Source of the DNA: Siphonodentalium dalli
Taxonomy: Eukaryota > Mollusca > Scaphopoda > Gadilida > Siphonodentaliidae
Length of the DNA stretch: 64,000 bases
Direction of reading: 5' to 3'
NCBI GenBank assembly: GCA_032622095.1
Contig: CP136063.1
Span: 73,757,980 to 73,821,979, forward strand
The position numbers and the translations under genes are program-made. The notes under the pieces were generated by a model that searched no databases, had not been told where the DNA came from, and saw only the letters and a program-made list of their open reading frames with translations. Positions 17,101-52,170 of the stretch are shown piece after piece (within the stretch, counting starts at the first letter, position 1; the number at the start of each line of letters is the position of its first letter).

Positions 17101-17107
17101 CATTATA

Positions 17108-17665
17108 CAATTATCACATTGTTTCGAGGTTGACATGAGGAATTGTCAACCCGGGGAAGACAATATTCACCAAGGCCGTTGGCCGAGGTGAATATTGACT
17201 TCCAAGGGCTGACAATTCCTCGTGTCAACCAAGAAACAATGCGATAACTGTTTTATTATATGAAACACACTTTGATTGGACAAGACGTTTTATTATATGA
17301 TTATAAGTTTCTTTCCCCAATTTCTATGTTAAAACGTAAAGAAAAAATGAGATATCTAACGATGTTCACCTCATTAATGAAACAACAGGTTAATAACAGT
17401 TCTGAGTGACGTCAGATACTTCAAAGGTTAACATAACTTATTATCAGACCTGGAAATAGATCAAGTTTTCCCATCGACGTTCAACGTCACAACGTCTTGT
17501 CCAATCAACGTGTGTTTCATATAATAAAACAGTTATCGCATTGTTTCTTGGTTGACACGAGGAATTGTCAGCCCTTGGAAGTCAATATTCACCTCGGCCT
17601 ACGGCCTTGGTAAATATTGTCTTCCCCGGGTTGACAATTCCTCATGTCAACCTCGAAACAATGGA
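17108..17665. mobile_element. pair of inverted hairpin elements
   Basis: 17108-17289 and 17497-17665 are reverse complements. Each centre is itself a hairpin: gttgacatgaggaattgtc pairs with gacaattcctcgtgtcaac, around an inner accaaggccgttggccgagg palindrome. The pair brackets and interrupts the outer part of the left arm of the 13.6-kb inverted repeat; the corresponding place in the right arm (about 30640) is uninterrupted. Confidence 0.75.
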
Positions 17666-18025
17666 GAGTGGCTAAAATGCAAGCTTGGCGCCAAGCTTGG
17701 CAGTTTTTAAGGCAGGTGACTAAAAGACAAGCTTGGCGTTTTCAAATCTTTAAAAAGCCTTTTAAACGCTGTTTTGGGGTGAATTATGCGGGAATAGCAC
17801 CAGTTAATTACTTATATGGCCCATTTTCGTAAATTAATCGACAATAGTGGCAGTAATGTCCCCGATTGGTTGGTTAATAGGGGGCGTGGTCACAAAATCA
17901 AAACATCGTCTTTTTACGCAGATTTCTTGTCGGTTTTTGGTCGATTTCTCTTTTTAAACATCAGTTGGACTCAGTTTTTTATTCAAAACATGTTGAATGG
18001 TTATCATTTATCACTCTCATAGTCG

Positions 18026-18870
18026 AGCTTGGCGGTTTTGAACATTATATGCGAAGAATTTTTGACTTTTATATGACCGACCACCGAACCGCCAAGCTCG
18101 AATAAAAAATCAAAATATTAAGCTGAATTTTCGCCGATTTCTCGTTTCTAAAACACGTTTCAGCTAGTTTTTATGTAAAAACGTGTAAAATGATTATCAT
18201 TCTTCACAAATATAATCGGGCTTGGCGGTTTTGAACATTATATACAAAGAATTTTTGACTTTTAGATGACCGACCACCGAACCGCCAAGTTCGAATAAAA
18301 AATCAAAATATTAAGCTGAATTTTCGCCGATTTCTCGTTTCTAAAACACGTTTCAGCTAGTTTTTATGTAAAAACGTGTAAAATGATTATCATTCTTCAC
18401 AAATATAATCGGGCTTGGCGGTTTTGAACATTATATACAAAGAATTTTTGACTTTTAGATGACCGACCACCGAACCGCCAAGCTCGAATAAAAAATCAAA
18501 ATATTAAGCTGAATTTTCGCCGATTTCTCGTTTCTAAAACACGTTCCATCTAGTTTTTATGTAAAAACGTGTAAAATGATTATCATTCTTCACAAATATA
18601 ATCGGGCTTGGCGGTTTTTAACATTATATACAAAGAATTTTTGACTTTTAGATGACCGACCACCGAACCGCCTAGCTCGAATAAAAAATCTAAATATTAA
18701 GCTGAATTTTCGCCGATTTCTCGTTTCTAAAACACGTTTCAGCTAGTTTTCATGTAAAAACGTGTAAAATGGTTATCATTCTTCACATATATACTCGAGC
18801 TTGGCGGTTTTTAACATTGAGTACTTAGAATTTTCGACTTTTATATGACCGCCCACCGAACCGCCAAGCC
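18026..18870. repeat. ~193-bp satellite, left arm, ~4.5 copies
   Basis: Units start cttggcggtttt at about 18028, 18221, 18414, 18607 and 18801. Inside each unit cttggcggtt is reverse-complemented 50-60 bases later (aaccgccaag), so each unit can form its own hairpin. Confidence 0.9.
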
Positions 18871-18984
18871 AAGGCAAAATGATACCCAGACCAAACCGAG
18901 GCAAAATGATACCCACCAAATATTGTCAACGTGTACCCATTAATGATCGTCCATGCAACTAATCAAACTTGTTCAATTATGCTT

Positions 18985-19384
18985 TTTTACTGTATGTGGT
19001 CGGCATATGAAAGTGATTATCTATCACACGTTCTGAAGCCATCTCACCCTCTGAAGTGTGAGGTGTGATTAGTCGACTGGTTACTGTGTAAACAACCTGC
19101 TTCTATTGTTTTGATAGGATAAGAATGGGGACAACAACGGTTAAGGGTTTCCCAAACTCCAGAGATAGTGAGATGAACTCAGAAAATAAGAGAAACTATA
19201 ATATCAATAATATGAAAACAGTTCATTTTTCATTTTCATAAATCTATATATTTCTATATGTATATTATGTTTATGTCATATGTTTGATTTTTTAAAATAA
19301 ATATTGTTTACACCAAATATATCATAATAGGAACTTAAAAAATTAATTTATCAATATATATTAACTTATTTACAACTTTAATAC
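18985..19384. other. no gene seen
   Basis: AT-rich start of the central part of the 13.6-kb unit. Confidence 0.45.
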
Positions 19385-19395
19385 AAATGTAACAC

Positions 19396-19485
19396 CCGGG
19401 CCAACTCGCCCCTGAAAGCTGGGCCAGCTCGCCCCAAAATCTGCCTGGGGCGAGTGGGCCCTGGGGCGAGTGGGCCCGGATCCAT
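19396..19485. repeat. doubled inverted repeat of ggggcgagt(g/t)ggcc
   Basis: Two copies of gggcca.ctcgcccc are followed by two copies of ggggcgagtgggcc on the same strand. This GC-rich cluster stands out in AT-rich DNA and could fold in more than one way. Confidence 0.75.
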
Positions 19486-19604
19486 CAGTCTTAACTTGAT
19501 AGGCTACGTCCCTGTAAGTAGGGAAAGGACCATGCATGCCCATGTGTCAAAATAAATACATTCATGACATGTCCCGATTGGTCATCTAGTTCCTACTTAG
19601 CATG

Positions 19605-19990
19605 TACTAACAAATAATTGGACTTAAGTCCAAATAAATTCTCCAATTGGACTAAAGTCAAAATAATTGGCATATAATAATAATTGGACTTTCCAAATAA
19701 TTGGACTTAAGTCCTATGAGCAAAATCAGACCTGCTTAATATCTGTTGGGAGTGTTTCTTATACAGTTGAATTGCACTTAAGTGCAAATGAGTTGTAAAA
19801 TACCACTTAATTGTGAATTCGGCGAGGAACTGGCGTCCAAATAGATTAAAATATCAGTAATTACACTTAAGTGTAATTCACTTGCACTTAAGTACAATTC
19901 CTCGCCGAATTCACATTATGTGGTATTTGGACTTAAATCAAATTATTTGGGTTCAGGTCCCTATCTAGCATGTAATACCAATTAATTGGA
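19605..19990. repeat. cluster of CTTAAG-centred palindromes
   Basis: Repeated 'attggacttaagtccaaat' words. A larger inverted repeat at 19775-19915 has arms with gcacttaagtgcaa and ttcggcgaggaa, reverse-complemented as attcctcgccgaattcaca. Probably a decayed foldback element. Confidence 0.6.
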
Positions 19991-20078
19991 CGTTTAAAAT
20001 CCAAATAATTTGTGAAAACGGGTTGCCATATATATACGAAAGGTATATATCTCATATATATTTTGAAGACCTCTGTCT

Positions 20079-20103
20079 GTCTGTCTGTCTGTCTGTCTGT
20101 ATG
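20079..20103. repeat. (TGTC)n microsatellite
   Basis: About five CTGT/TGTC units next to a widespread 'atcgaaaacggctggctcg' repeat. Confidence 0.85.
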
Positions 20104-20339
20104 TCCTTTATAGAATCGAAAACGGCTGGCTCGATTGAGTTCAAACTTCATATCTAAGGGTAAAATCCCACGGACACCGTCGGCGTCGCGTTTTGGAGAA
20201 GCACAGACCACCCGTTCTCCACTCTCAGTCACAAAAAAACGGCACTGCGGTGGTTAATCAAGTGATAATTTAATGAGCGTTTGTTTTTGACGCATCGCTA
20301 TAAAGAGCGTTTATTTACCATTCAACGTTATTAGCATCT

Positions 20340-21500
20340 GCAGAGATATATACTCGGAAACGGGTGGAGCTATCGACTTGAAATTTGCTATGTGAATGTA
20401 TCTTGCCCCGGATACGAATTTTATCGGGTCGCCGAGCCCGTGCGACGCAAGCTTCGCGCATGCGCAGACCAGATCTCGGAAACGGGTGGAGCTATCGACT
20501 TGAAATTTGGTTACCAGATCTCGGAAACGGGTGGAGCTATCGACTTGAAATTTGGTTTTTGAATAGCCCGGACAACGGGCTCATCTGCTAGTCTATTATA
20601 TATTTTGGAAGATCTGTGTGTGTCTGTCTGTGTGATCGCGATGAACTCGAAAACGACCGAGCCGATTTCGATGAAACTTGGTATGTGGGGGTATTTTCGG
20701 CCGGGGACTGGCATAGGCATATTAATTTGTCCGTGCGACGTGACCTTGGCCTTGACATCGGGTCATTTCAAGGTCAAACGTCCGAATATCACGGGATTTC
20801 GATGAAACTTGGTATGTGCGGGTACTTTCGTCCGGGGAGTGGCATGGGCCTATTAATTTGCCCGCGCGACGTGACCTTGACCTTGAAATCGGGTCATTTC
20901 AAGGTCAAACGCCCGAATATCACTGGATTTCGATGAAACTTGGTATGTGGGGGTACTTTCGGCCGGGGAGTGGCATAGTCCTATTAATTTGCCCGTGCGA
21001 CATGACATTGACCTTGAAATCGGGTCATTTCAAGGTCAAACGCCCGAATATCACGGGATTTCGATGAAAATTAGTGTCTATGGATACTTTCGTATGGGGA
21101 GTCTCATAAGCCCGTGTGACGTGAGCTTGAAATCTGAAATTGAAGGTCAAATCGCCAATTTTGATGGGATTTCGACAAAATTTGATACGTGGGTTACTTT
21201 TGTCCACTGAGTGTTTTGGACGGGTCAAATCGTGACCCCGACCTGACCTTGACCTTGAAAATGATCAATTCGAGGTCAAATCCCACCAAATATCCCGGGA
21301 TTTCGATGAAAATTGGTGTCTAGGGATACTTTCGTATAGGGAGTATCATAAGCCTATTCAGTTGCCCGTGCGACGTGACCTTGACATCGGGTCAATTCAA
21401 GGTCAAATCGCGAATTTTGATGGGATTTTGACGAAATTTGATACATAGGGTTACTTTTGTCCACTGAGTGTTTTGGACGGGTCAAATCGTGACTCCGACC
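20340..21500. repeat. ~125-bp tandem array with 'caaggtcaaa' words, ~7 copies
   Basis: After two short copies of 'tcggaaacgggtggagctat' (20470-20560), the array repeats 'gatttcgatgaaacttggta', 'tttcggccggggagtggcat' and 'ttgaccttgaaatcgggtca'. The unit length often divides by three, so open frames of up to 106 codons run through it (20605-21210). These are a by-product of the repeat, not genes. Confidence 0.9.
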
Positions 21501-21645
21501 TGACCTGACATGTACGAGAGAATGTTACCCCATAGTTTCCTTGCTGCTTGAGTGATAAGGTATAACACTGTGTGCAAATAAGTTATTGAAATGGTTTATT
21601 ATTTTCAAGAGTAAGCATGTATATATATGAAACAATAACATAAAT

Positions 21646-21800
21646 GTGTTCTCATTCTGTTCTCTTCCATCGATGTTGGGGGTATTCCTGTATTTCCATT
21701 TAGGAATTTGTCTTATTCTTCTTTTCTCCTCTTCGTCGATGTTGGTGGTATTCTATTATTCTTCTTTTCTCCTCTTCGTCGATGTTGGGGTTATTCTATT
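21646..21800. repeat. ~54-bp tandem repeat
   Basis: About 2.5 copies of 'cttcttttctcctcttcgtcgatgttgg'-type sequence. Confidence 0.75.
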
Positions 21801-22349
21801 ATTGTTGTCATATATCTGTGTTCTCGGTCTGTTCTCCTCCGTCCATGATGTGTGTATCTTTGATTTCGGTCGATATATCTGAGCTAACGTACTCCTATGA
21901 TTGCCATGATGTTAGTTGGGCTATTTCATCTATAATATCTCTGGTGGTGGATAACTCTTCTTGGATATACATGATATTTACAATACATGTGTGCAACTTT
22001 CTTACACAATATTCAATTACAACGAATAAAAATGGTGTCAATAAACATCATTCAGGCATATTTGCAGTATAGATAAAAGCAATGTGTTCAAAGTAGATAT
22101 ACACAATACAGTTTTATATACAATAGTCTTTGTATGGTGTTATATATATGTTCTGAACACGACATGTATCATGGATTACAAATAATAAAATATACCATGC
22201 AATACCAGTTTCGTATTGTACAAAAACAGTTATACATATAGAATCAGAAGCACTGCGTTAATATATAATCTTAAGCATGGTCACTACATGTATGTAAAAT
22301 AGTGCAGTCGTGAAGCTGCGGTTGTTACGATTTAATGTGGAAAGAAACG

Positions 22350-22510
22350 ATTACTTGTGACACACATTGGAGCCATCTACACCAACTAGCATCCAAGAAC
22401 ACCCAACATTAGAGGTAGGCAAACTCTGCCCTCGGTGGAACATTGGGCAGAGCTTGTTCTCCTTGAAGTCAGTAGGTGGAAATGGCTCAATGTGCGATTG
22501 TTTCGCTTGC
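22350..22510. repeat. partial copy of the repeat downstream of the MULE gene
   Basis: Matches the centre of the tandem copies at 22845 and 23338 ('acattagaggtaggcaa', 'tggaacattgggcagagctt'). More diverged than the other two and lacking their right part. Confidence 0.75.
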
Positions 22511-22844
22511 CGATAAATGTACGATGATATGTTATTATACATTAAGCATGCATGCATCATACATATACAACAGGCATTCACGTATAGTACGGTATATATG
22601 CTAATAAATATGATGTCAACTAAGATCATCCACATCTACAGTATAAACAACAGCAACGTAGATTATACACAATACACATCTATATACAATATACGTCCTA
22701 TGAGGCAGTGGTATAAATACAACTTGTAGCACAAACAATAAAGCACAAAATAAACAAGTACCAAGCACAAAATACATATATAGCATGCACTTGACATATG
22801 TTCAAAATATAACACGAAGCACTATATATAGGCCTAATTAACTA

Positions 22845-23094
22845 AGCATGAAAATATGCATGTAAAAGAATACTCTATAATTAAACGCTTCCTGAATGCA
22901 GATGTGGTTGATATGAATTTATCTGGAAAGACCATTGAAGCCACATACACCCACTGACATTCAAGAATACCCGACATTAGAGGTAGGCAAGGTCTGCCCT
23001 TGGTGGAACGTTGAGCAGAACTTGTTCTCCTTAAAGTCAGTGAGCGTAAATGGCACACGGTGCAATTATGTGCATATTCTATATAGTGTTTGTC

Positions 23095-23156
<62 letters not shown>

Positions 23157-23337
23157 AGAAACAATCAGGCATTTAATTTTTTGTTTAATATAATATGTTA
23201 CGCGGGTGGTAGCCGTTACCATAAGTAATAATTTCACCAAAAAAGAGCCAGAAGGGCTCAGTATAATTATCGTGCCAGAGCAGATACGTAAATTAAGTGT
23301 GTGTGTGACATAGCGAACACTCCCACGTTCCTTTAAT
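22845..23337 (-). repeat. duplicated 3' end of the MULE gene, outer copy
   Basis: Matches 23338-23758 along its length, except for a longer (TA)n run (about 23095-23155). Its right end carries a degenerate copy of the last codons of the gene: on the minus strand near 23295-23335 it reads KGTWECSLCHTHT then stop, against KGTWECSPCHKQT in the gene. So the duplication took the end of the coding sequence plus about 380 bp beyond it. Confidence 0.82.
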
Positions 23338-23715
23338 GAATATATGCATGTAAAATAATACGCTTACTGAATGCAGATGTGGTTGATATGAATTTATCGG
23401 AAAAGAACATTGAAGCCACATACATCCACTGACATTCAAGAATACCCGACATTAGAGGTAGGCAAGGTCTGCCCTTGGTGGAACGTTGGGCAGAACTTGT
23501 TCTCCTTGAAGTCAGTGGGCGAAAGTGGCACAATGTGCAATTGTGTGCATATACTATATAGCGTTTTGTCATATATATATATCCAGCAAAATCGGGCATT
23601 TAATTTGTTGTTTAATTTAATATGTTACGCGGATGGTAGCCGTTACGCTATGTAATAATTTCACGAAAAATGTGCCAGAAGGGCTCAGTATATCGTGCCA
23701 GAGTATATACGTAAA
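23338..23715 (-). other. 3' flank/UTR of the MULE gene (inner duplicate copy)
   Basis: Follows the stop codon directly. It lacks a canonical AATAAA on the minus strand, but ATTAAA variants occur near 23600-23625. The same sequence is repeated outward at 22845-23337. Confidence 0.5.
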
Positions 23716-26700
23716 TTAAGTTTGTTTGTGGCACGGCGAACACTCCCACGTTCCTTTCATCGCGCGATCGACAATATTCTGACAATGCATATGATACCAT
23801 TTCTTACAACATGAACACTGGATCATGTTGTCGTAGCAATCCGGCATTGCACACCCAGGAGACTCGCAGTTCTTTTCTATTTCTACCTCAGTGTGTCTAG
23901 CTTTTGTTCGCACACTTAGGTTGTTTCTTGGAAAAGCCGTGAAACGTTTATCATGTAGACATTTTAGCAAATGTTTTCGCATTTCCTGCGCCCGGAACCT
24001 ACAATAGCCTGTTCGACCAAAACATGGATCTAAACAAAATTCTACGATGTTGGCCACGGCAAACACACCACAATCGTCAGAGTTTGCCTGCCTCTGTGTG
24101 TGAGGTATACGGACGGACAGTTTTCCTAGTTGTGATCCACGACCATATATAGACCATAATTGTATCATACTAGATGTAGTTAGAGGGTCCAATTCGTTGA
24201 GAAGTGAGTCAAATAGGTAGACAGACTCATTGTCGTGGCTTGGTATGTATGTTGACGCAATCCAGTGACTATGGCCGGTGTGGTGGATTTGGGCTACAGG
24301 TTGAGAGGGGCCGAAACCGGTAAAGTGACTGAAACCACCAGGGTTATACATTCCTAATGACATGTCTACGTTAGGCGCAAAAAGTGTGTCCTGAAATCCA
24401 AGAAACCATGGAAACTGGTCGGCGAGAATAGTCTGAGAGTCCCTAATTATACTGTCACAGAGCCACTGACCCGTGCTGATAGTCATTACTTTACTGGGTG
24501 TCAATTTATGAACAGTATGTTGCGTCCTTACCGGAGATGATTGTTGTGATGACATTTTCGGCGGCGACGGCGCCGGCGAAAACAGCCTTCTACGCTTTGC
24601 GGTGGATATAGTGGGCAGAATAATCGGTTGATCCGGTGATAAGACGGGAGAAACTGTGGGTGAAGGTGAAAGTTGGATATCGGTGAATACTGCCGGATTT
24701 GTTTTTGGTGATTGAGAACGCTCTGGTGTAAAAGACACGTTTGTCGGAGAACTAGAGAGTATCTGTGTGAAATCAGGCAATTGTGATGTATTTCCCTGAG
24801 ATGCAGGGAGCGGAGGAGTTGTAGTCAATGGTGTAGACATTTTTGAATTGGCGGCACGAATTGTGGTTATAGGATGAGTTCGGGTAACGTTGAAAGTTAT
24901 CTTCTGGTTGCCATGTCGTGTCTTTTTTAGACAAGATTTTGGGGGAGTTGGTGTGGTTATCGCGACAACTTCAGGTGATGTTCTGACAGGTGAGCTCACA
25001 TTTGATGCGGTCACATAAATTGGTCGAGGTGACTGAGACTGCTCTGGTGTAGTCGGAGATGAGCTTACAATTGATGAGGCCAAAGAATCTGATGCGGGTG
25101 TACTCACATTTGATGAGACCAAAGAATCTGGTGCGGGTGTGGACAGACGATCATAATCGTTTTTTCTTGGCTTCTTGTTGCCAGATTTTTTATCCTCACG
25201 CGAGCGACCGCGTTTCCGGAGAACCGTCAGGTTAACAGGCCTGGTTTCTGGGTTATCAACTCCCATGCCGACGAGTAATCTGGCGGCTAAAATGTGGTAA
25301 CATGTGGCATTTGATGCACAACCACATGTCTCTTTGGGGAAGAGTTTTATGCAGTAGTTGTCGCCTCTGCTGCCAACTACACAAAATAGATGCTGTTCGG
25401 GGACAAACGATATTCTGTTTGACCTAATAACTTCATTAGCGAGAGCAATCTGACCACTGTATCTAGTGGGTTCTGATTCGGTTTGTGAATCAGGTTGCGA
25501 AGCAGGGATTTGCCCGTCGTCACCATCAGAATCATCCATATTGAGACGACCATTCCTTGTTTCCTCGACAATGTCACGCCAATGTGTTACTCCTGGAGGC
25601 ATTATACACTCTCCATCTTGGAGTCTGGCTGACTCGTAAACCTCTCTTAGTACAAAGTTGCCTACTCCAAGTCGTCCTCTTTTGTATTCGTAAAAATAAA
25701 ATTTACAAAGAAAATACAAAGAAAGTACAATTGCGTCAATCGGAGCCTCTTTCCAACCTTGCAACTGTTTCAAGACAACATTGAATGACTCAGACTGATT
25801 GTTTGTGATGCCAGAGAGAGAGTCGTACACTTTATGTGGACGGAGCAACCAGGCACCAGCGCCTCGTTTGATGTCGCTTTTCATATTTCTATCAAAATAA
25901 GATTTAACTGACTGTGTCCAATTAGAAGTGAGGTCTTCGTACCTCTTCTCAAAATCATCCTCAGAATTTGCCTTCAACAAAGATATCAAGTCCCGCTTAT
26001 AAATGGCAATTTCGTCTACATTAGCCTTGAGTTCAGTTTGTAAATATCGATGGAGATCCCTTTTGAGATGGTTCCAGCAGAAAAAAATGGGCATACTTGG
26101 AAAGATTGTGCTCACAGCATTCGAGAAGGCGTCCTCTCGATCAAAAACTATGGGGATTCGACTTTGAAACTTTGCAAGGTTTGGGATCTTTTCCCTCACC
26201 GCCTCGAAAAGACGAGTATGTGGCTTTTGATATTTCCGCTCGTGGATGAGAAACGCCAGTGGAAAAACAGGAGAACCTTCAAACAAAATATTTCGAATGA
26301 CAAGAGATGAAACGTAGCAGTCACCAACGTTGAATGTTGTGTCATAACCGAGAACGAATCGACGAGAATCCTGGTCAATTTCGAGAAGATCATTTACCTC
26401 ATTGGACCATTCTGGGTAATGAAGAATGACATACAGATCGTTGTCAAGGTAGCAAACTTCAGGTAAATGCTTCAACTGATGTGCCATTTGCAAAAGGTCC
26501 CTGATGGGATCTTTAGACCTTGTGCCCGCAACTACATGCGCCTTTGAATTCCGTACCTGTTTCGTATTTCTTGGATTGAGGACACCGTTATGATCTGGCT
26601 GAATATTATGATCTGACACGAGGCGTTGGTATATGGTATGGGGGTTGGATTCAGAAGATGTCACAGCTTCTCTGATAGAATGCAATGCAGAAGGTGCAGT

Positions 26701-27712
26701 TCGGTTGAATTTGGAACGACTATTTTTTGAATTGAAATGAGGGAAGCCAGAAGATAATGATTCGCTGCCCATATAATGGATCAGCACTTGATTTGAATTT
26801 TCATATAGGGTATACGCAGTGCGCACAAACGAGCCTGATCCTGTTCGATCACCAGCTCCCTGTTTTATATAGAACCGAGTTCTTGTGATAAGAGGGTCCT
26901 TCTTTGGAAAGTTGTTAGGCCCTTTGTTAACCCAACGATGCTGATCAGCTTTCCAATCGTCACGCTTAACTGGGTCATCATTTTTGTAGATATATAACGT
27001 GCCACCGATTGGCTTAACGGGTGGGGTGTTACCAACCTTGACCAGTCGATTTTGGTTTGATGAAAGTATGTCTATCGCATCGTCATTTGAAAGGGGACCG
27101 TCCCAGCTATCAAGTTCAGAATTTGGACTGGCTGCAGTTTCAGCATCAGGATTTGTGTCTATTCCCGAATCCTGTAAAAGACAAAAGGTCAACGTTAAAT
27201 ACACGTTATTGCAATCATATTAGTTAAAAGATAAAATATACGATTTGATACTAGATCGTACGAATTTCAACGAAGTCTTAACGTTCGAATTGTGTTAGCC
27301 TATATTTATAAATTATAATGACCGTCTCATATAAAGAGCGTTCACTTTACCGTGACTTCATGTATTTTCTCGGTTTTTTTTTGTAAAGTAAGCTGAACAA
27401 TCATTTGATATCGAATAGGACACCGCATATGTGCCATGAAACTACTAAATCGTAGTGCGATACAACAATTCAATTAGTGACAAATAGAACACATTCAAAG
27501 GTTATGATTTTATTTGTTGTCGTGGAATGATGTCGACATTAACTATAGTGTTTATATTAGGCTTTTCTAATATCACAATTATTTGCATCACCTAAATGTT
27601 TTTTCTTCACAATATACTGTAGAAAAAAAATATTATTTGACTTCCCATGAAAAAACGGACCAATAACAGTTGAATGCTATATACATATGCAATATTATAT
27701 ATTACTCACCAT
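23716..27712 (-). CDS. MULE transposase fused to SWIM finger, C48/Ulp1-like protease and PHD finger; CG-1-like N-terminus
   Basis: Spliced model: ATG at 27712-27710, intron 27709-27172 (GTGAGT donor, cttttacag acceptor), exon 2 27171-23716, 1152 residues. Residues ~56-136 resemble the CG-1 DNA-binding domain (GGTLYIY, DDWKADQHRW, then F.RTAY..., VLIHY). The MULE core spans ~270-480: D278 (GYDTTF), D345 (FDRED), C366-x2-H369 (CWNH) and E462 (NNQSESFN) supply the DDE triad and its Cys-His insert. SWIM: C617-x-C619-x5-C625-x-H627. A Ser/Thr/Pro-rich linker with basic patches (~650-890) follows. Protease: H970-W, D989 (LFDS), Q1029 and C1035 (DDCGVF), the C48 His-Asp-Gln-Cys set. PHD: cysteines from 1103 to 1148 (CSCCKKWYHMHC, WECSPC). 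Expected role: nuclear cut-and-paste transposition, perhaps with deSUMOylation and histone reading (inference). No stops or frameshifts. It lies inside a 13.6-kb inverted repeat; domestication cannot be excluded. Confidence 0.9.
27172..27709 (-). other. intron 1 of the MULE gene
   Basis: The donor GTGAGT (27709-27704) follows ATG directly. The acceptor tttgtcttttacag ends at 27172 and precedes GAT. Exon 2 is in frame with the ATG (phase 0). The frame stays open for 11 codons into the intron, so a start at 27204 would be possible without splicing, but the promoter and splice signals favour the spliced start. The 12-mer ATAAAGAGCGTT lies at 27331. Confidence 0.8.
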
Positions 27713-27727
27713 TGCCACTGTCTTTCT

Positions 27728-27764
27728 GGAACTGATGTTGTTCGCTCACCAGCGGGAATTTATA
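27728..27764 (-). promoter_or_regulatory. TATA box and initiator of the MULE gene
   Basis: On the minus strand TATAAATT occupies 27764-27757 and TCAGTT 27735-27730. The A of the initiator (27733) is 31 bases from the first T of the TATA box, the standard spacing. This predicts a 5' UTR of about 20 bases before the ATG at 27712 and an exon 1 of about 24 bases. Confidence 0.7.
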
Positions 27765-27769
27765 GCAAG

Positions 27770-28748
27770 AAGGCGTGTCTAAATCAACTCAAACGAAACC
27801 CATACCGTCGCACGTGTGTGTCACCGTTAACACTTCGCATGATCGGCGGCATGTACACAAAAGTGACGAGTGTTCTGTGGGGAAGCCAAAAAAACAACCC
27901 TATCAAAACAGCGGCACATAGACGTGTCACTGAATAAACAGTTCCACCACTTCACTTACCAATGCACTGTATGGTGTGTTTATGAGCGATAACAGTTTGT
28001 CCGATTGAGTAAGCGTCATGAATTGTTTTTAAAGCAATTGCTAGTCAATTGAGCTGTGTCAAAAAAACTAAAACAAATCATGAGTTGGGGTTCAGATTCC
28101 CACGTTGAACCAACGCGTTTAGTTTGATAATTCTGACAGAGGGTATGGATCTATTCTGTAACGGAGTTTTCGTGTCGATTATAATTCACTTCATCCTGGT
28201 GAGTAAACTACTCGAATTGCAACTAACCGGTTCTTGGCTAGTCAGTGATATATATAAAATAAATGAAACCTAAATTAATGGGGACGGATGAAAGAAAACT
28301 CAAGAAAGCTAAGAAAAAGAAACATTATCTCAAGCCTTTCCCATCTGATCGATACCCCTCCCTCACTTATCGGGGAAGTGGCATGTCGCCAAAGAGGAAA
28401 AGACTTCATATAAGCCATCGGGCTTGTTGTCTGGTCCTCATTTCCATACATTATCTCTTCTATTTTGCTTATTAATTGTGTATCACCTGTACACGTGCAT
28501 ATTATGTTATGTTGGAAATAAAAATATGTTTACACTAAAAAGAAAGAAAGAATGACGTCTCAGGTCCTTTCAAATCCTCCTGGGTCAAATCCCCCCCCCC
28601 AAAACAAATAATAATAATAATAATTTATTGTGGATGGAGAATTAAATTATATTACAGTTTGCCCTCTGGAATTCATGTATATTATCATTGTGACCGTTCC
28701 ACACACGTGCCAATTAAATCACAATGCTACATCGAAACAAGAATATAA
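27770..28748. other. upstream region of the MULE gene, no other gene seen
   Basis: Moderately AT-rich. Contains a poly-C run (28590-28600) and an (AAT)n stretch (28607-28624). The lysine-rich frame at 28263-28475 has no recognisable domain and is not called. Confidence 0.5.
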
Positions 28749-30858
28749 CATAATTGAACAAGTTTGATTAGTTGCATGAACGATCATTAATGGGTACACG
28801 TTGACAATATTTGGTGGGTATCATTTTGCCTCGGTTTGGTCTGGGTATCATTTTGCCTTGGCTTGGCGGTTCGGTGGGCGGTCATATAAAAGTCGAAAAT
28901 TCTAAGTACTCAATGTTAAAAACCGCCAAGCTCGAGTATATATGTGAAGAACGATAATCATTTTACATGAAAAATAGCTGGGACATGTTTTAGAAACGAG
29001 AAATCGGCCGAAATTCAGCTTAATATTTGGATTTTTTATTCGAGCTTGGCGGTTCGGTGGTCGGTCATCTAAAAGTCAAAAATTCTTTGTATATAATGTT
29101 CATAACCGCCAAGCCCGATTGTATTTGTGAAGAATGATAATCATTTTACACGTTTTTACATAAAAACTAGATGGAACGTGTTTTAGAAACGAGAAATCGG
29201 CGAAAATTCAGCTTAATATTTTGATTTTTTATTCGAGCTTGGCGGTTCGGTGGTCGGTCATCTAAAAGTCAAAAATTCTTTGTATATAATGTTCAAAACC
29301 GCCAAGCCCGATTATATTTGTGAAGAATGATAATCATTTTACACGTTTTTACATAAAAACTAGATGGAACGTGTTTTAGAAACGAGAAATCGGCGAAAAT
29401 TCAGCTTAATATTTAGATTTTTTATTCGAGCTTGGCAGTTCGGTGGTCGGTCATCTAAAAGTAAAAAATTCTTTGTATATAATGTTCAAAACCGCCAAGC
29501 CCGATTATATTTGTGAAGAATGATAATCATTTTACACGTTTTTACATAAAAACTAGACGGAACGTGTTTTAGAAACGAGAAATCGGCGAAAATTCAGCTT
29601 AATATTTTGATTTTTTATTCGAGCTTGGCGGTTCGGTGGTCGGTCATCTAAAAGTCAAAAATTCTTTGTATATAATGTTCAAAACCGCCAAGCCCGATTA
29701 TATTTGTGAAGAATGATAATCATTTTACACGTTTTTACATAAAAACTAGACGGAACGTGTTTTAGAAACGAGAAATCGGCGAAAATTCAGCTTAATATTT
29801 TGATTTTTTATTCGAGCTTGGCGGTTCGGTGGTCGGTCATCTAAAAGTCAAAAATTCTTTGTATATAATGTTCAAAACCGCCAAGCCCGATTATATTTGT
29901 GAAGAATGATAATCATTTTACACGTTTTTACATAAAAACTAGATGGAACGTGTTTTAGAAACGAGAAATCGGCGAAAATTCAGCTTAATGTTTTGATTTT
30001 TTATTCGAGCTTGGCGGTTCGGTGGTCGGTCATCTAAAAGTCAAAAATTCTTTGTATATAATGTTCAAAACCGCCAAGCCCGATTATATTTGTGAAGAAT
30101 GATAATCATTTTACACGTTTTTACATAAAAACTAGATGGAACGTGTTTTAGAAACGAGAAATCGGCGAAAATTCAGCTTAATATTTGGATTTTTTATTCG
30201 AGCTTGGCGGTTCGGTGGTCGGTCATCTAAAAGTCAAAAATTCTTCGCATATAATGTTCAAAACCGCCAAGCTCGACTATGAGAGTGATAAATGATAACC
30301 ATTCAACATGTTTTGAATAAAAAACTGAGTCCAACTGATGTTTAAAAAGAGAAATCGACCAAACACCAACAAGAAATCTGCGTAAAAAGACGATGTTTTG
30401 ATTTTGTGACCACGCCCCCTATTAACCAACCAATCGGGGACATTACTGCCACTATTGTCGATTAATTTACGAAAATGGGCCATATAAGTAATTAACTGGT
30501 GCTATTCCCGCATAATTCACCCGAAAACAGCGTTTAAAAGGCTTTTTAAAGATTTGAAAACGCCAAGCTTGTCTTTTAGTCACCTGCCTTAAAAACTGCC
30601 AAGCTTGGCGCCAAGCTTGCATTTTAGCCACTCTCGAAACAATGCGATAATTGTATAGTGACGTTGAATGTCGATGGGAAAACCTGATCTATTTCCAGGT
30701 CTGATAATAAGTTATGTTAACCTTTGAAGTAGCTGACGTCACTGAAAACTGTTATTAACCTGTTGTTTCATTAATGAGGTGAACATCGTTAAATATCTCA
30801 TTTTTTCTTTACATTTTAACATAGGAATTGGGGAAAGAAACTTATGATCATATAATAA
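28749..30858. repeat. right arm of the 13.6-kb inverted repeat, with ~193-bp satellite
   Basis: Reverse complement of the left arm. The satellite runs from about 28870 to 30275 in roughly seven units, against 4.5 on the left. The frame at 30277-30483 is the mirror of 17816-18022 with a single amino-acid difference; this reflects arm identity, not selection. Confidence 0.9.
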
Positions 30859-47830: not shown

Positions 47831-49050
47831 AATGTAAAGTTGAGCTAAAAATGCTTCCTCATAACCAATTATAGTTTGTCTGAGTCATATATAGTCATAT
47901 GGGTGTATGTATGGTTCGTGGATGTCTTGGTAGATGGAGAGACACCGGAATTGGTCCCATTTTACTGGGGTGGATTGCCGTGGTGGATTATCATTTGTTT
48001 CATCCGCAGTTGGGTGCTTTCATTGGAATTGTAGCATAATCATTTTCATTAGATTGACCAAGATATTTTCCTAGATTTCAATTCAATATCAAAACTATCT
48101 AATGTAGATGCATAAACCTAACTTTAGACTCCCTACATACAACATTTCAGGATCACAATGTATTTTTCTATATTTTATAGCCAAAAATGTCTCCTTTTTT
48201 AGATTTTGTGTGTGCCAAATAATTTAGGTGCTGGATTCAGATGCGATATTCATTAATACACTCGTATTTACCTAACAACGAAGATTTTATAAACTTTCAG
48301 CGTCAGAGAAAATTTTGCTGAAATTTCAGCATCAAAACCTCAAAATGTTTCAAATTGTGACATTTTTAGGTAATTTCGAGAAATTCCGTTTAACATTTTT
48401 ATCTCCAAAACAAACTTCAGATTTTGAGATTCTGTTGACTTCACTGTTCTTTTTCAATCATTTCAATCGATGAATTTTCAAGGTTTGTGGTATCAAAACT
48501 ATTCCTCTATTTCAACTTGATTATAAAATTTCATTTTACCAAAATGTGTTCATCAAAATTCCGTTAAAAATGTCTTTTCCTGAACGGGCAGTTTTTTGTC
48601 AATTCCATCACTAACTGAAAACTAACACAATGTTATCTGGATATTATCTGGGCATGGTAAAAACATAAATAAAACACTTTGGCAAAAACAGATTATATTT
48701 TATTGATATACAGTATTTCCACTTGTTAACAAAATGTCCTTTCCTGATCTTTTACTTTACATGAATGGTCTGCTCAAATTCTGCTATCAAAGACAATACC
48801 TTTATTGTGTTCTAATTTTATATCATAGTATGACTTCATTTACATATACTTTAGGTGTTTAATCACGTTTCCTCTAACGTTCGAATGCTACAGCCGTTAT
48901 AGGGATAGGCATATACGGTGGACTATGATGCGTGCCCTGATATTATATGTCCATATATGACGATTATGGACATCCACCTTATTTGGTCATGTTTATTGTC
49001 AGGATTAACTGGAAAACCAATTCACATTCAAATAACGGTAGCACAGATTT
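47831..49050. other. no gene seen
   Basis: AT-rich with T-rich runs. No exon-like or repeated structure noticed. Confidence 0.45.
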
Positions 49051-49059
49051 TAAGTAACA

Positions 49060-49925
49060 TTATGTGAGTTTGAAGGGAGTGGTGCAGTTACAAAGGAGGG
49101 TATGCAGTTAAATGGGAGGGTGTGTGGTTACAGAGGAGGGGTGCACTTACACGGGTGAGGGTGCAGTTACAAGGAAGGTGTGCAGTTAAAATGGAGGTGT
49201 GTAGTTAATAAGGAGGGGTGTAGTTACAAGGGAGGGTGAAGTTACAAGTGAAGAGAAGTTACAAGGGATGGTGTGTTACATGGGAATGTGGAGTTACAAG
49301 GGACGGGGTGTAGATACCAGGGGTGTATTTACAAGGGAGAGGTACAGTTACCATGGAGGTGGCAGTTACAAGGGAGGTTGTGCCGTTACAAGGGATGGGG
49401 TACAGTTACACGGGAGAGTGTGCAAGGTATGGGTACAGTTCCATGGGAGGGTGTGCAGTTACAAGGGGAGGTGGTACAGTAACAAGGGAGGGGTACATTT
49501 ACAAGAGAGAATATGCAGTTACATGGGATGGGGTACAGTTACAATGGGGTAGTTACAAGGGATGGGATGCAGTAACAAGGGAGGGTATGCAGTTACAGGG
49601 AGGGGTTTATTTACAAGGGAGTGGGTAGAGTTACAAGGGGGCATTCAGTTACAAGGGAGCGGCAGTTACAAGGGGTGCATTTATAAGGGAGTGGGTGCAG
49701 TTACATGGGAGGTTATGCAGTTACAGGCAGGGAGGTGGTACAGTTAAAAGGGATGGGGAACTGAGTTACAAGGGAGAGGTAGTTACAAGATAGCGTGCAG
49801 TTACAAGGGATGGCATGCAGCTACACTGGAAGAGTGCAGTTACAAGGGAGGTGTAAAATGTAGGTAGCAGTTATAAGGAAGGGAAGGAGCAGTTACACTG
49901 GAGGGTACGCAGTAACAAGGGATGA
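49060..49925. repeat. minisatellite of 'agttacaaggga' units
   Basis: Dozens of 17-30-bp units built from (g/c)agttacaagggagggg(t), very G-rich on the plus strand. Open frames of up to 101 codons are a repeat artefact. Confidence 0.93.
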
Positions 49926-50440
49926 TGATGATTGTTTATTTGTATAATATTTACAAGCTTATGACAATGGTGATAATAAACAAACAAAAAATGATATTTT
50001 ACAGGAGCGACATGGCCCAGATGGACCGCCTTCCTGTCGCCCCTACGTATACAAAGTTACAAACATGAAGTGGCAACTAATGAAGTGAAGTGATAATGAA
50101 AAAGATAGAATGTAGTTCATAATAGACAAATAAAGTATCCAAACCACTTATGGGATGCATCTACATGTATATGTATTAATACATATATATTGGTTGTATT
50201 CGTGGGCTTATAATAAATATGTCACTAATGATGGGGGTATGGCCGGGGCTGTTTCGATTCTTTACTGGTTAAGAAAATAATGGCTTCCGATTATCAAATG
50301 AATTGAAAGATAGTTGTTGCTGTAGCAGATATTTGTTTCAGGTTATCGAGGAATTCATATCTCGATATGTAGGAAGCAATTTCTCGTTTCGTCCCGCCAA
50401 AATGTTAAGGTGAACATACCAGACTGCATTACAATGACTA
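49926..50440. other. insertion splitting the minisatellite
   Basis: Unique sequence between two halves of the array. The first 130 bp ('gatgattgtttatttgtata', 'acatggcccagatggaccgc') look like a SINE or LINE tail. No target duplication was identified. Confidence 0.45.
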
Positions 50441-50860
50441 TAATGAGGGAGGGAACACAGTTACACGGGAAGGGGGCAGTTACAAGGTAGAGGGCAGTTA
50501 CAAGGGTTGAAGTTACAAGGGAGGGGTAGTCACAATGGAGGCATGCAGTTACAAGGGATGGGGTACGGTTACAAGGGAGGGAATGCAGGTACAATGAGGA
50601 GGTAAGTTACAAGGGAAGGGTACAGTTACAAGGGAGAGGTGCTAGTTACAAGGGGTGCAGTTACACTAGAGTGCGTGCAGTTACAAGGGGGGCATGTAGT
50701 TACATGTTGAGGGTTACAGTTACAAGTGAGGGGCAGTTACAAGGGGTGCAGTTACAAGGGAGGAGGTGCAGTTTGTATTTTGGTTTACAAGGGAGGGGTG
50801 CAATTAAAAGTGTCGAAGGTTGCTGCAGTTACAAGGGATGGAGTGCAATAATTTTGTGAC
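50441..50860. repeat. minisatellite of 'agttacaaggga' units, second block
   Basis: Same unit family and orientation as 49060-49925, after the insertion. Confidence 0.92.
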
Positions 50861-51680
50861 GCAGTATATGAAAATAATATTGACCCTGTTCAGTCTTATC
50901 AGATTTAGGTTTCTAGAATTTCCCCATGATGAGGCAATAAATTGTTTCCAAATATGGAGTGCATGCTTGGTGTAGTGAATATTTGTGAGAATCGTAGTAT
51001 TTAGTAGGAGTCATTATAATCAGTAATAATAGCCTAATAAAAACTTGAAGGAGCTGCCTCAGATTGCGATGAGTAATTGTATGGCATTCAATTGTGAATA
51101 TATTGCCACCATATGTATGGTGTCAGCAGTTCGAAAAAGCAACTACATGCATGCTTTATACATGGTTTACCACAGTGATGGGACAATTAGTGTGTATTTT
51201 TTAATGAAGCTTTGTCTGAAAATAATATTTAGAAAACTTTTAAAGTATAGAAAGATGAATTTTGGTGAAGCCAAATATATCGTCTTAGTCAGCCCCATAA
51301 ATTATTACCGGAATACCGTTTTTCCGTGGTCGAGGGCTGTATAAGTATGGATGGCGTTAACATATGCGTATCCAATGCAGTAATCTGGTAATGCAAATTG
51401 AAACATAATTAAGACAATACTGTATTCGTTGTGCACATTCCTTTTTTATATAGTTATTGGTACTAAGCTGCTAATACTTGTACTGTTATTTACCAGTTTT
51501 GTTCGGATTCACCTAATTCCAAAAAGCATTATAGATTACATGTACCCATTTAAATTCTTTTCATCTGATGAACAATTGTCAAGACTATCCTGTCTTTCGT
51601 ATAACACATCATATGGATGACTAATATATGAATCAGAATGTGCTCTTAAACTTCACTATAGAGACATGTGATTACATATG
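50861..51680. other. no gene seen
   Basis: AT-rich. The frames at 51045-51344 and 51429-51620 have no recognisable motif. Confidence 0.45.
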
Positions 51681-51684
51681 TTAA

Positions 51685-52170
51685 AGGTACGGTTGGCCTT
51701 GGCGGTGGGTATCCTGTGAAAATATTTACAAAACCGCCACAAACAGAAAGAACATCAAAATGTAGACAGACTTTGTCCGTATACAAATAAGAAATATCGC
51801 ATAAACAGTATGTTATTGTCATATGTTTGACCATTGTTATGTAAACAAACGCATAAAAAGTAACTTGTCTGGCGTTTGTTTATATTATGATGGTAAACAT
51901 AAAGAGCGTTCTTTGTTGGTTAATTCCTGATAGGGAGCTAATAAAGAGCGTTTATATCATTTATGTGTGATTAGCTAGTAGCATTGTGCTGTGTTCTGTA
52001 ACACAATCAGGCTCTTGCTTAGGTAAAATATAGTAGGTCTTTATGATAACATGCTGTTTACGCGATGGCCATGGTATATATGGACGAAACTGTATGCGTT
52101 TTAATGTTTTTCTGTTTACGGTGTTTGGAACAAATATGAATATTTTCGACAATTAAGGCCAACCGTGCCT
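51685..52170. mobile_element. TTAA-type (Kolobok-like) MITE
   Basis: TTAA on both sides (51681-51684 and 52171-52174). Ends are AGGTACGGTTGGCCTT and, read inward, AGGCACGGTTGGCCTT: 16 bp with one mismatch. A non-CCC start with TTAA duplication is more like Kolobok than piggyBac (inference). 486 bp, no coding capacity. It carries two ATAAAGAGCGTT motifs 42 bp apart (51899 and 51941). Confidence 0.82.

Follow-up and report, generated by a model that had tools for sequence, protein, structure and literature searches.

A gene in a 64,000-nucleotide stretch of the genome of the scaphopod mollusc Siphonodentalium dalli (GenBank assembly GCA_032622095.1, contig CP136063.1, positions 73,757,980 to 73,821,979 of the forward strand; hereafter the window) encodes, to judge from its sequence, the transposase of a real mobile element that is complete and recently mobile. 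The element belongs to the Mutator/MULE (Mutator-like element) superfamily, an assignment that follows from its 9-bp target-site duplications (TSDs), its terminal inverted repeats (TIRs) and its MULE-type DDE domain. From N- to C-terminus, the 1,152-residue transposase comprises a CG-1 domain, the DDE/MULE catalytic domain, a SWIM-like zinc motif, a C48/Ulp1-like protease domain and a PHD finger. Measured against the literature searched, what appears to be new is the CG-1 domain, which was not found in print in a MULE transposase. A preliminary description made from the nucleotide letters alone had proposed such a single-protein transposase; that identification stands, and is extended here by the transposon ends, the TSD and the further copies, which it lacked. 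It is considered probable that the locus is explained in this way, as the gene for the transposase of an intact MULE that has moved recently and acts by the mechanism outlined below.

The Element and Its Insertion Site

The element ends exactly at positions 17664 and 30635 (Table 1), and both ends begin GAGAGTGGCTAAAATGCAAGCTTGG. The TIRs measure 1.3 kb on the left and 1.9 kb on the right. Mutator and MULE insertions typically create TSDs of 8-11 bp, usually 9, and the window element has 9. Its insertion target was one arm of an older inverted-repeat element: when the flanks are joined over one copy of the TSD, they match the other arm of that target at 137 of 141 bases, 17 of these 141 lying beyond the junction, so that the other arm represents the unoccupied site. 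The older element occupies 17104-17663 and 30645-30858, with arms at 17117-17289 and 17491-17663 (98%), and a second occurrence of its inner part (17290-17490) lies at 30858-30658. Element boundaries further out, at 17290/30858, were considered and rejected, as this stretch belongs to the older target. Inside the Mutator-like element are tandem repeats at 20664-21069 and 20998-21506 (periods 131 and 242 bp) and eight internal open reading frames at 19936-23599, none with a Pfam match above cut-off.

Copies and Mobility

The 2.23-Gb genome, assembled in nine contigs, contains at least 53 transposase matches including that of the window itself (best 40 of 2,438 candidates scored); among these, one other copy, on contig C7, is full-length, open and 99% identical. 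The terminal 363 bp occur at 99-100% identity in at least 41 places (best 40 of 837 candidates scored). Both ends were checked in eight elements, six of which are flanked by perfect, mutually different 9-bp TSDs (the window element and those at C4:266.1M, C7:31.3M, C4:14.6M, C3:119.0M and C5:16.5M, designated by contig and position); the remaining two, at C9:52.2M and C7:17.3M, show no matching TSD. Short elements of 2-5 kb with the same terminal repeats lie at C3:118956882-118959985, C3:78974684-78976707 and C5:16460967-16465762, the first and last of them between perfect 9-bp TSDs, and are likely non-autonomous derivatives.

Domestication of MULEs is known in general, and the long stop-free frame, with a TATA box at a fitting distance, would also suit a host transcription factor or chromatin protein merely derived from a MULE. 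The gene nevertheless lies within intact inverted repeats bounded by a perfect TSD, many copies are 98-99% identical, and six of the eight elements checked have different TSDs. On these ends, TSDs and copies a domesticated host gene was rejected, and it is very improbable.

Between the coding parts of the window and C7 copies, 2, 4 and 5 of 1,148 first, second and third codon positions differ, with 6 gap columns, numbers that are too small for a test of selection. Open frames were also read at three places for a second subfamily, which shares 43-44% identity with the window protein; in one of these the match begins only at about residue 107. Selection on the entire protein is best supported by the fact that, at this distance, the frame has stayed open and the catalytic residues have been retained. 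The subfamily copy at C5:134.7M exceeds the Pfam cut-offs for MULE (35.5 bits) and CG-1 (26.6 bits) and falls below those for C48 (20.6, cut-off 20.7) and PHD (16.3, cut-off 24); SWIM is unlisted. Motifs for SWIM, protease and PHD are nonetheless legible in its sequence. A simple scan found no inverted repeats within 17 kb of the diverged copies at C5:134.7M, C7:76.3M, C6:183.1M and C8:14.05M.

Gene Structure

The transposase is read from a minus-strand open frame at 23716..27219, 1,167 codons from stop to stop and the sole frame of at least 200 codons in the open reading frame list of the window. The protein starts MDSGID, and residues are numbered from MDSG. The coding part of the predicted exon 1 consists of a single ATG, whose A is position 27712 and which is followed directly by the putative splice donor (ATG, then GTGAGT); the acceptor is TTTTACAG, after which exon 2 opens at 27171 with GATTCG, in frame with the ATG. 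Donor and acceptor are both kept in all five other gene copies examined, with the search motifs 524-529 bp apart. The extent of 23716..27712 given in the preliminary description is correct, from the start codon of a short first coding exon to the end of the frame. Downstream, the 3' flank and final codons of the gene are partly duplicated (23268-23337 against 23691-23760, 70 bp at 89%), and 216-bp units are present at 22308, 22876 and 23351.

Relatives of the Protein

Three protein searches, each scoring roughly 8,000 candidates sharing most words, recovered at least 45 distinct related proteins at E <= 0.001. P0001 shares 33% identity with the window protein across 97% of the query length; because of this match and the intact 99%-identical copy on another contig, a chance frame is excluded. 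Fusion of separate genes, by chance or in assembly, could be argued from the scores of three domains, which are sub-threshold in the window protein itself. This alternative, whose probability is practically negligible, is refuted by the conserved architecture: the domain order is the same in relatives at 26-39% identity, and the 43-44% subfamily has open frames. The proposal of one continuous protein is borne out.

The preliminary description had called for a search for orthologous fusions in other animals. In P0006, from the bivalve Ruditapes philippinarum, CG-1, MULE, PHD and C48 all exceed their Pfam cut-offs in a single protein. Other named sources are Pinctada imbricata (P0002 and P0003), Mytilus edulis, M. 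coruscus and the crustacean Oratosquilla oratoria, so that bivalves account for four of the five named species. Among 34 aligned members, many of them fragments, Pfam matches at E <= 0.01 were obtained for MULE in 30, CG-1 in 14, PHD in 12, C48 in five and SWIM in one. The highest CG-1 score (45.2 bits, E 9e-12) belongs to P0023, which is 34% identical to the CG-1 region of the window protein over 142 columns. The Pfam cut-off for C48 is exceeded in P0002, P0003, P0006 and P0017, and that for PHD in P0001, P0006, P0007, P0010, P0012, P0016 and P0041. All five motif sets were found in seven of 46 sequences scanned (the window protein, P0005, P0006, P0008, P0010, P0017 and P0041); CG-1 is doubtful in P0010, since the domain would lie ahead of the start of that protein, and patterns as simple as these overlook some likely cases, among them the P0001 protease.

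Two relatives depart from this plan. P0031 (874 aa) carries FLYWCH, a domain of the WRKY/GCM1 type, together with two CG-1 stretches, and its MULE region has lost both the CxxH insert and the last of the three catalytic residues, which makes it a possible case of transposase domestication or decay. In P0038 (769 aa), which has no MULE match, the CG-1 and SWIM region of the family occurs together with a ubiquitin-specific protease (UCH, 85.6 bits); this protein is either a gene-model artefact or a real fusion.

Domains of the Transposase

The CG-1 domain, proposed in the preliminary description from motif likeness, is recognized by Pfam (PF03859) at 23.9 bits, narrowly above the cut-off of 23.5. 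Its DxxxW motif is D77...W81, with both residues kept in 21 of 22 alignment rows. In fold comparison, which included no solved CG-1 structure, the best matches were SSR4 and NAC, at modest scores; these are the fold links named for CG-1 within the WRKY/GCM1 clan, which has an alpha-beta5 fold (PMC9252788). Searched against PDB sequences, the N-terminal 200 residues matched just a cyclophilin at E 0.3, and the CG-1 model had no match at E <= 0.001 in a viral fold library.

The MULE domain likewise exceeds its Pfam cut-off (PF10551, 28.8-28.9 bits against 27.6), and the DDE set with CxxH insert, first read from the letters, is D278, D345 and E462 with C366xxH369. Among rows of the 34-row alignment with a letter at the position, the first Asp is kept in 31 of 33, the second in 33 of 33 and the Glu in 27 of 28. 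The domain folds like ISCth4 and Hermes, and the protein matches the NCBIfam IS256 family at E 9e-6, far under the cut-off of that family.

The SWIM-like motif is C617xC619...C625xH627, and CxC...CxH is complete in all 25 alignment rows that have the four positions. The protease domain has an Ulp1/SENP fold and the His-Asp-Gln-Cys set H970, D989, Q1029 and C1035; in the 15 rows reaching all four positions, His and Asp are each kept in 14 and Gln and Cys in 15, a count that leaves out P0038, with its USP-type C-terminus, and P0021, P0022, P0032 and P0033, with a single stray letter each. The PHD finger has a C4HC3 ligand set of seven Cys and one His, of which the first two Cys are, unusually, four residues apart. 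A family profile of this finger matches the solved fingers of EBS, Spp1 and PHF2, which read histone tails, at E 2.8e-9 to 2.1e-8, and the finger of the window protein taken singly matches that of TAF3 weakly (phmmer, E 0.0057).

The Pfam scan of the window protein, run at E up to 10 with filters that drop most matches above about 0.1, also gave results that tell against the interpretation offered here: PHD reaches 16.6-16.7 bits (cut-off 24), C48 15.9 bits (cut-off 20.7), and SWIM (PF04434) is not listed. For these three domains it is the family members that carry the case. The protease is upheld as a domain by its catalytic set, its fold and the relatives above the Pfam cut-off, while the SWIM and PHD assignments hold mainly through motif and family. 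A structural match was found for both CG-1 and C48, the lack of which the preliminary description had named as grounds for abandoning its proposal.

Candidate Binding Sites in the Terminal Repeats

The heptamer GCTTGGC occurs 32 times in the TIRs of the window element and not once in the other 60.8 kb, with four occurrences in each terminal 363 bp. In the copies at C7 and C4:266.1M, which are near-identical and not independent, there are 23 and 28 occurrences in the repeats and none inside the element. GCTTGGC is the best candidate for a transposase site, and it is not a CAMTA site.

CG-1 domains of CAMTA proteins bind (A/C)CGTGT (PMC10417383). The density of this motif is 6.8-6.9 per kb of TIR against 0.8-1.0 elsewhere, the tandem units not being independent, and one 193-bp unit contains 2 sites, whereas Markov resampling gives a mean of 0.10, with 2 reached in 0.5% of 20,000 resamplings. 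It was tried after CGCG, VCGCGB, VCGTGB and TACGTG. To be set beside the low domain scores are the absence of the CGCG core from the TIRs and that of (A/C)CGTGT from the terminal 363 bp. A CAMTA site as the end-recognition motif was dropped on these two counts; since the enrichment of (A/C)CGTGT is confined to the tandem arrays and the inner part, this motif is not claimed as a binding site.

These counts bear on the alternative that CG-1 directs the transposase to host DNA while another region binds the transposon ends. The terminal 363 bp hold no CAMTA-type site, and GCTTGGC, which they do hold, is not one, as this alternative would have it; against it stand the enrichment of (A/C)CGTGT in the arrays, with the reservations just given on tandem units and earlier motifs, and the Phantom MULEs, which are characterized by an N-terminal FLYWCH DNA-binding domain (PMC3169594). 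Its probability is clearly below even, though substantial.

A Second Gene in Longer Copies

The C7 copy is 19,627 bp long. Its 5,932 bp of extra sequence relative to the window copy, adjoining the left repeat, encode a convergent 190-aa frame that matches Lipase_GDSL_2 at 34.0 bits (Pfam cut-off 32.9). The protein contains the GSS, GxND and DxxH blocks of SGNH hydrolases. The gene is 99-100% identical in the copies at C9:52.2M and C4:14.6M, and its end is seen in that at C1:101.5M; relatives 37-40% identical adjoin two of the four diverged transposase loci read (L024 and L021). It is absent from the window and C4:266.1M copies, for each of which both ends are known, was not seen within the 17 kb read at C1:262.9M, and a blastp comparison of its product with the 45 related proteins gave nothing at E <= 1. 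Next to this gene, the C7 copy also carries a broken stretch of MULE (L029:5469-5846) that over 101 residues shares 45% identity with the window transposase.

Maize MuDR has two convergent genes, one from each TIR, an arrangement like that of the 19.6-kb C7 copy; the difference is that mudrB is not known to be an SGNH hydrolase. An SGNH partner gene in a MULE was not met in print, though no literature search aimed at SGNH/GDSL genes in MULEs was made.

Elsewhere in the window, GC skew is strong over 4 kb at 48001-52000 (0.28, 0.25), unlike the other parts.

Table 1. Coordinates of the element, its transposase gene and the partner gene (window positions unless a locus or contig is named).
Feature	Position	Strand	Basis
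Whole Mutator-like element, 12,972 bp	17664..30635	- (transposase strand)	Matching TIR ends and 9-bp TSD; same ends in other copies
TSD, left copy, GAAACAATG	17655..17663	.	Perfect, 9/9 bases
TSD, right copy, GAAACAATG	30636..30644	.	Perfect, 9/9 bases
Left TIR	17664..18981	+	97.2% over 1,206 bp to 30635-29430; inner part runs on to 18981/28749
Right TIR, longer through more tandem units	28749..30635	-	3 differences from left TIR in outer 363 bp
193-bp tandem array, left TIR, 4.6 copies	17976..18869	.	
193-bp tandem array, right TIR, 7.6 copies	28861..30323	.	
TATAAA box, candidate promoter	27759..27764	-	Sequence; about 50 bp upstream of ATG
Exon 1, coding part (ATG)	27710..27712	-	Kept in 5/5 other copies; predicted from genomic DNA
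Intron, 538 bp (GTGAGT...ACAG)	27172..27709	-	Sequence; junctions kept in copies; predicted from genomic DNA
Exon 2, transposase residues 2-1152	23719..27171	-	Open frame, relatives, 99% copy
Transposase stop codon	23716-23718	-	
CG-1 domain, residues 29-135	26770..27090	-	PF03859 23.9 bits; relatives; fold
DDE/MULE catalytic domain, residues about 232-500	25675..26481	-	
SWIM-like zinc motif CxCx5CxH, residues 617-627	25294..25326	-	Motif; no Pfam match in window protein
C48/Ulp1-like cysteine protease domain, residues 886-1079	23938..24519	-	Catalytic C1035 codon at 24070-24072
PHD finger, residues 1108-1148	23731..23853	-	Pfam 16.6 (cut-off 24); family profile; TAF3 match
SGNH/GDSL hydrolase gene, C7 copy	L029:4389-4958 = C7:31344388-31344957	+	
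SGNH/GDSL hydrolase gene, further copies	L028:6155-6724; L016:7487-7999		

Proposed Mechanism

In the mechanism envisaged for the element, CG-1, helped by the SWIM motif, would bind repeated sites in the inverted repeats, and the DDE domain would cut and join DNA with a 9-bp stagger. At the transposition complex, the C48 domain may take SUMO or a similar modifier off its own transposase or off host proteins involved in repair or silencing. The Ulp1/SENP fold and the well-kept catalytic set are consistent with such a protease; that the domain is not a SUMO protease, and acts instead on ubiquitin or NEDD8 or serves as a mere binding module, falls not far short of an even chance. The PHD finger would tether the complex to histone H3 tails and so bias insertion. 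Longer copies add the SGNH/GDSL hydrolase as a second gene, which the window copy is without.

Comparison with Known Systems

Combinations of MULE with SWIM, MULE with Ulp1 and a MULE-like transposase with PHD are each already in print (PMC6446971, PMC2836005, PMC6117577). The "all-in-one" design of the preliminary description accordingly holds as a five-domain transposase; as a novelty it does not extend to the pairing of MULE with Ulp1 (PMC2836005) or with a PHD finger, listed for the related group Rehavkus (PMC6446971). CG-1 in a transposase was found neither in the literature searched for CG-1/PF03859 nor in the text at hand of PMC6446971, PMC13359780 and PMC2836005, Repbase reports lying outside this scope.

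Among the closest known systems are the Mutator (MuDR) transposases of hydra and lancelet, which have a C-terminal Ulp1 domain; the published description, the basis of this comparison, contains no mention of CG-1 (PMC2836005). A figure in the same paper shows Ulp1 and PHD domains from Mutator transposases in alignment with those from Ginger1. Ginger1 transposases similarly add a C-terminal Ulp1 domain, and in one listed family a PHD finger, to a DDE transposase, which is Gypsy-integrase-like and not of the MULE type (PMC2836005). The plant Kaonashi elements (KI-MULEs) combine MULE with a C48 Ulp1-like peptidase but belong to a plant lineage, and neither CG-1 nor PHD is named in the available account (PMC6117577).

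Rehavkus elements share the 9-bp TSD and a MULE-like DDE domain with the element described here (PMC6446971). They are also listed with a PHD finger, to which the finger here, recognized by motif and family profile and below the Pfam cut-off, may correspond, and with a mini-satellite that precedes the 3' TIR, whereas the 193-bp arrays here lie inside both TIRs. Their TIRs are 26-400 bp long against 1.3-1.9 kb, and neither a protease nor CG-1 is listed for them in this source, on whose description the comparison is based (PMC6446971). The same paper lists molluscan MULEs, MULE-Mollusca (group 19) and MULE-Cg (group 15), for which its table, the sole basis of comparison, gives no zinc finger or other motif. 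Phantom/Tm1 elements resemble the present one in an N-terminal DNA-binding domain joined to MULE, 9-bp TSDs and composite, repeat-rich Foldback-like TIRs, but have FLYWCH where CG-1 sits here and a 496-aa transposase with no C48 or PHD domain in the description at hand (PMC3169594). CAMTA transcription factors have the CG-1 DNA-binding domain in common with the window protein, in which it is the sole CAMTA-type domain: the Pfam scan listed no TIG/IPT, ankyrin or IQ domain, so that the architecture is not that of a CAMTA.

Implications for CG-1 and for MULE Transposition

Other regulators of the WRKY/GCM1 clan are thought to derive from transposases. A reading that joins all these elements, in which CG-1 is the end- or target-recognition domain of an animal MULE lineage, CAMTA arose from such a transposase, and the transposase in addition removes a ubiquitin-like modifier and chooses its insertion site by reading H3 tails, with SGNH as a second gene, is unlikely to hold in its entirety. 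According to a 2026 review, possession of CG-1 is a necessary and sufficient ground for calling a protein a CAMTA (PMC13290587); the transposases described here contradict this rule, which can misname transposases. In this mobile MULE, CG-1 is conserved at the N-terminus, where Phantom elements have FLYWCH, and it becomes directly testable by phylogeny whether the DNA-binding domain of CAMTA has its origin in a transposon (or was captured). Because PHD and C48 lie in a single protein, chromatin targeting by a transposase and removal of a ubiquitin-like tag may each be tested by single point changes, and the S. dalli genome offers near-identical copies with TSDs for such tests.

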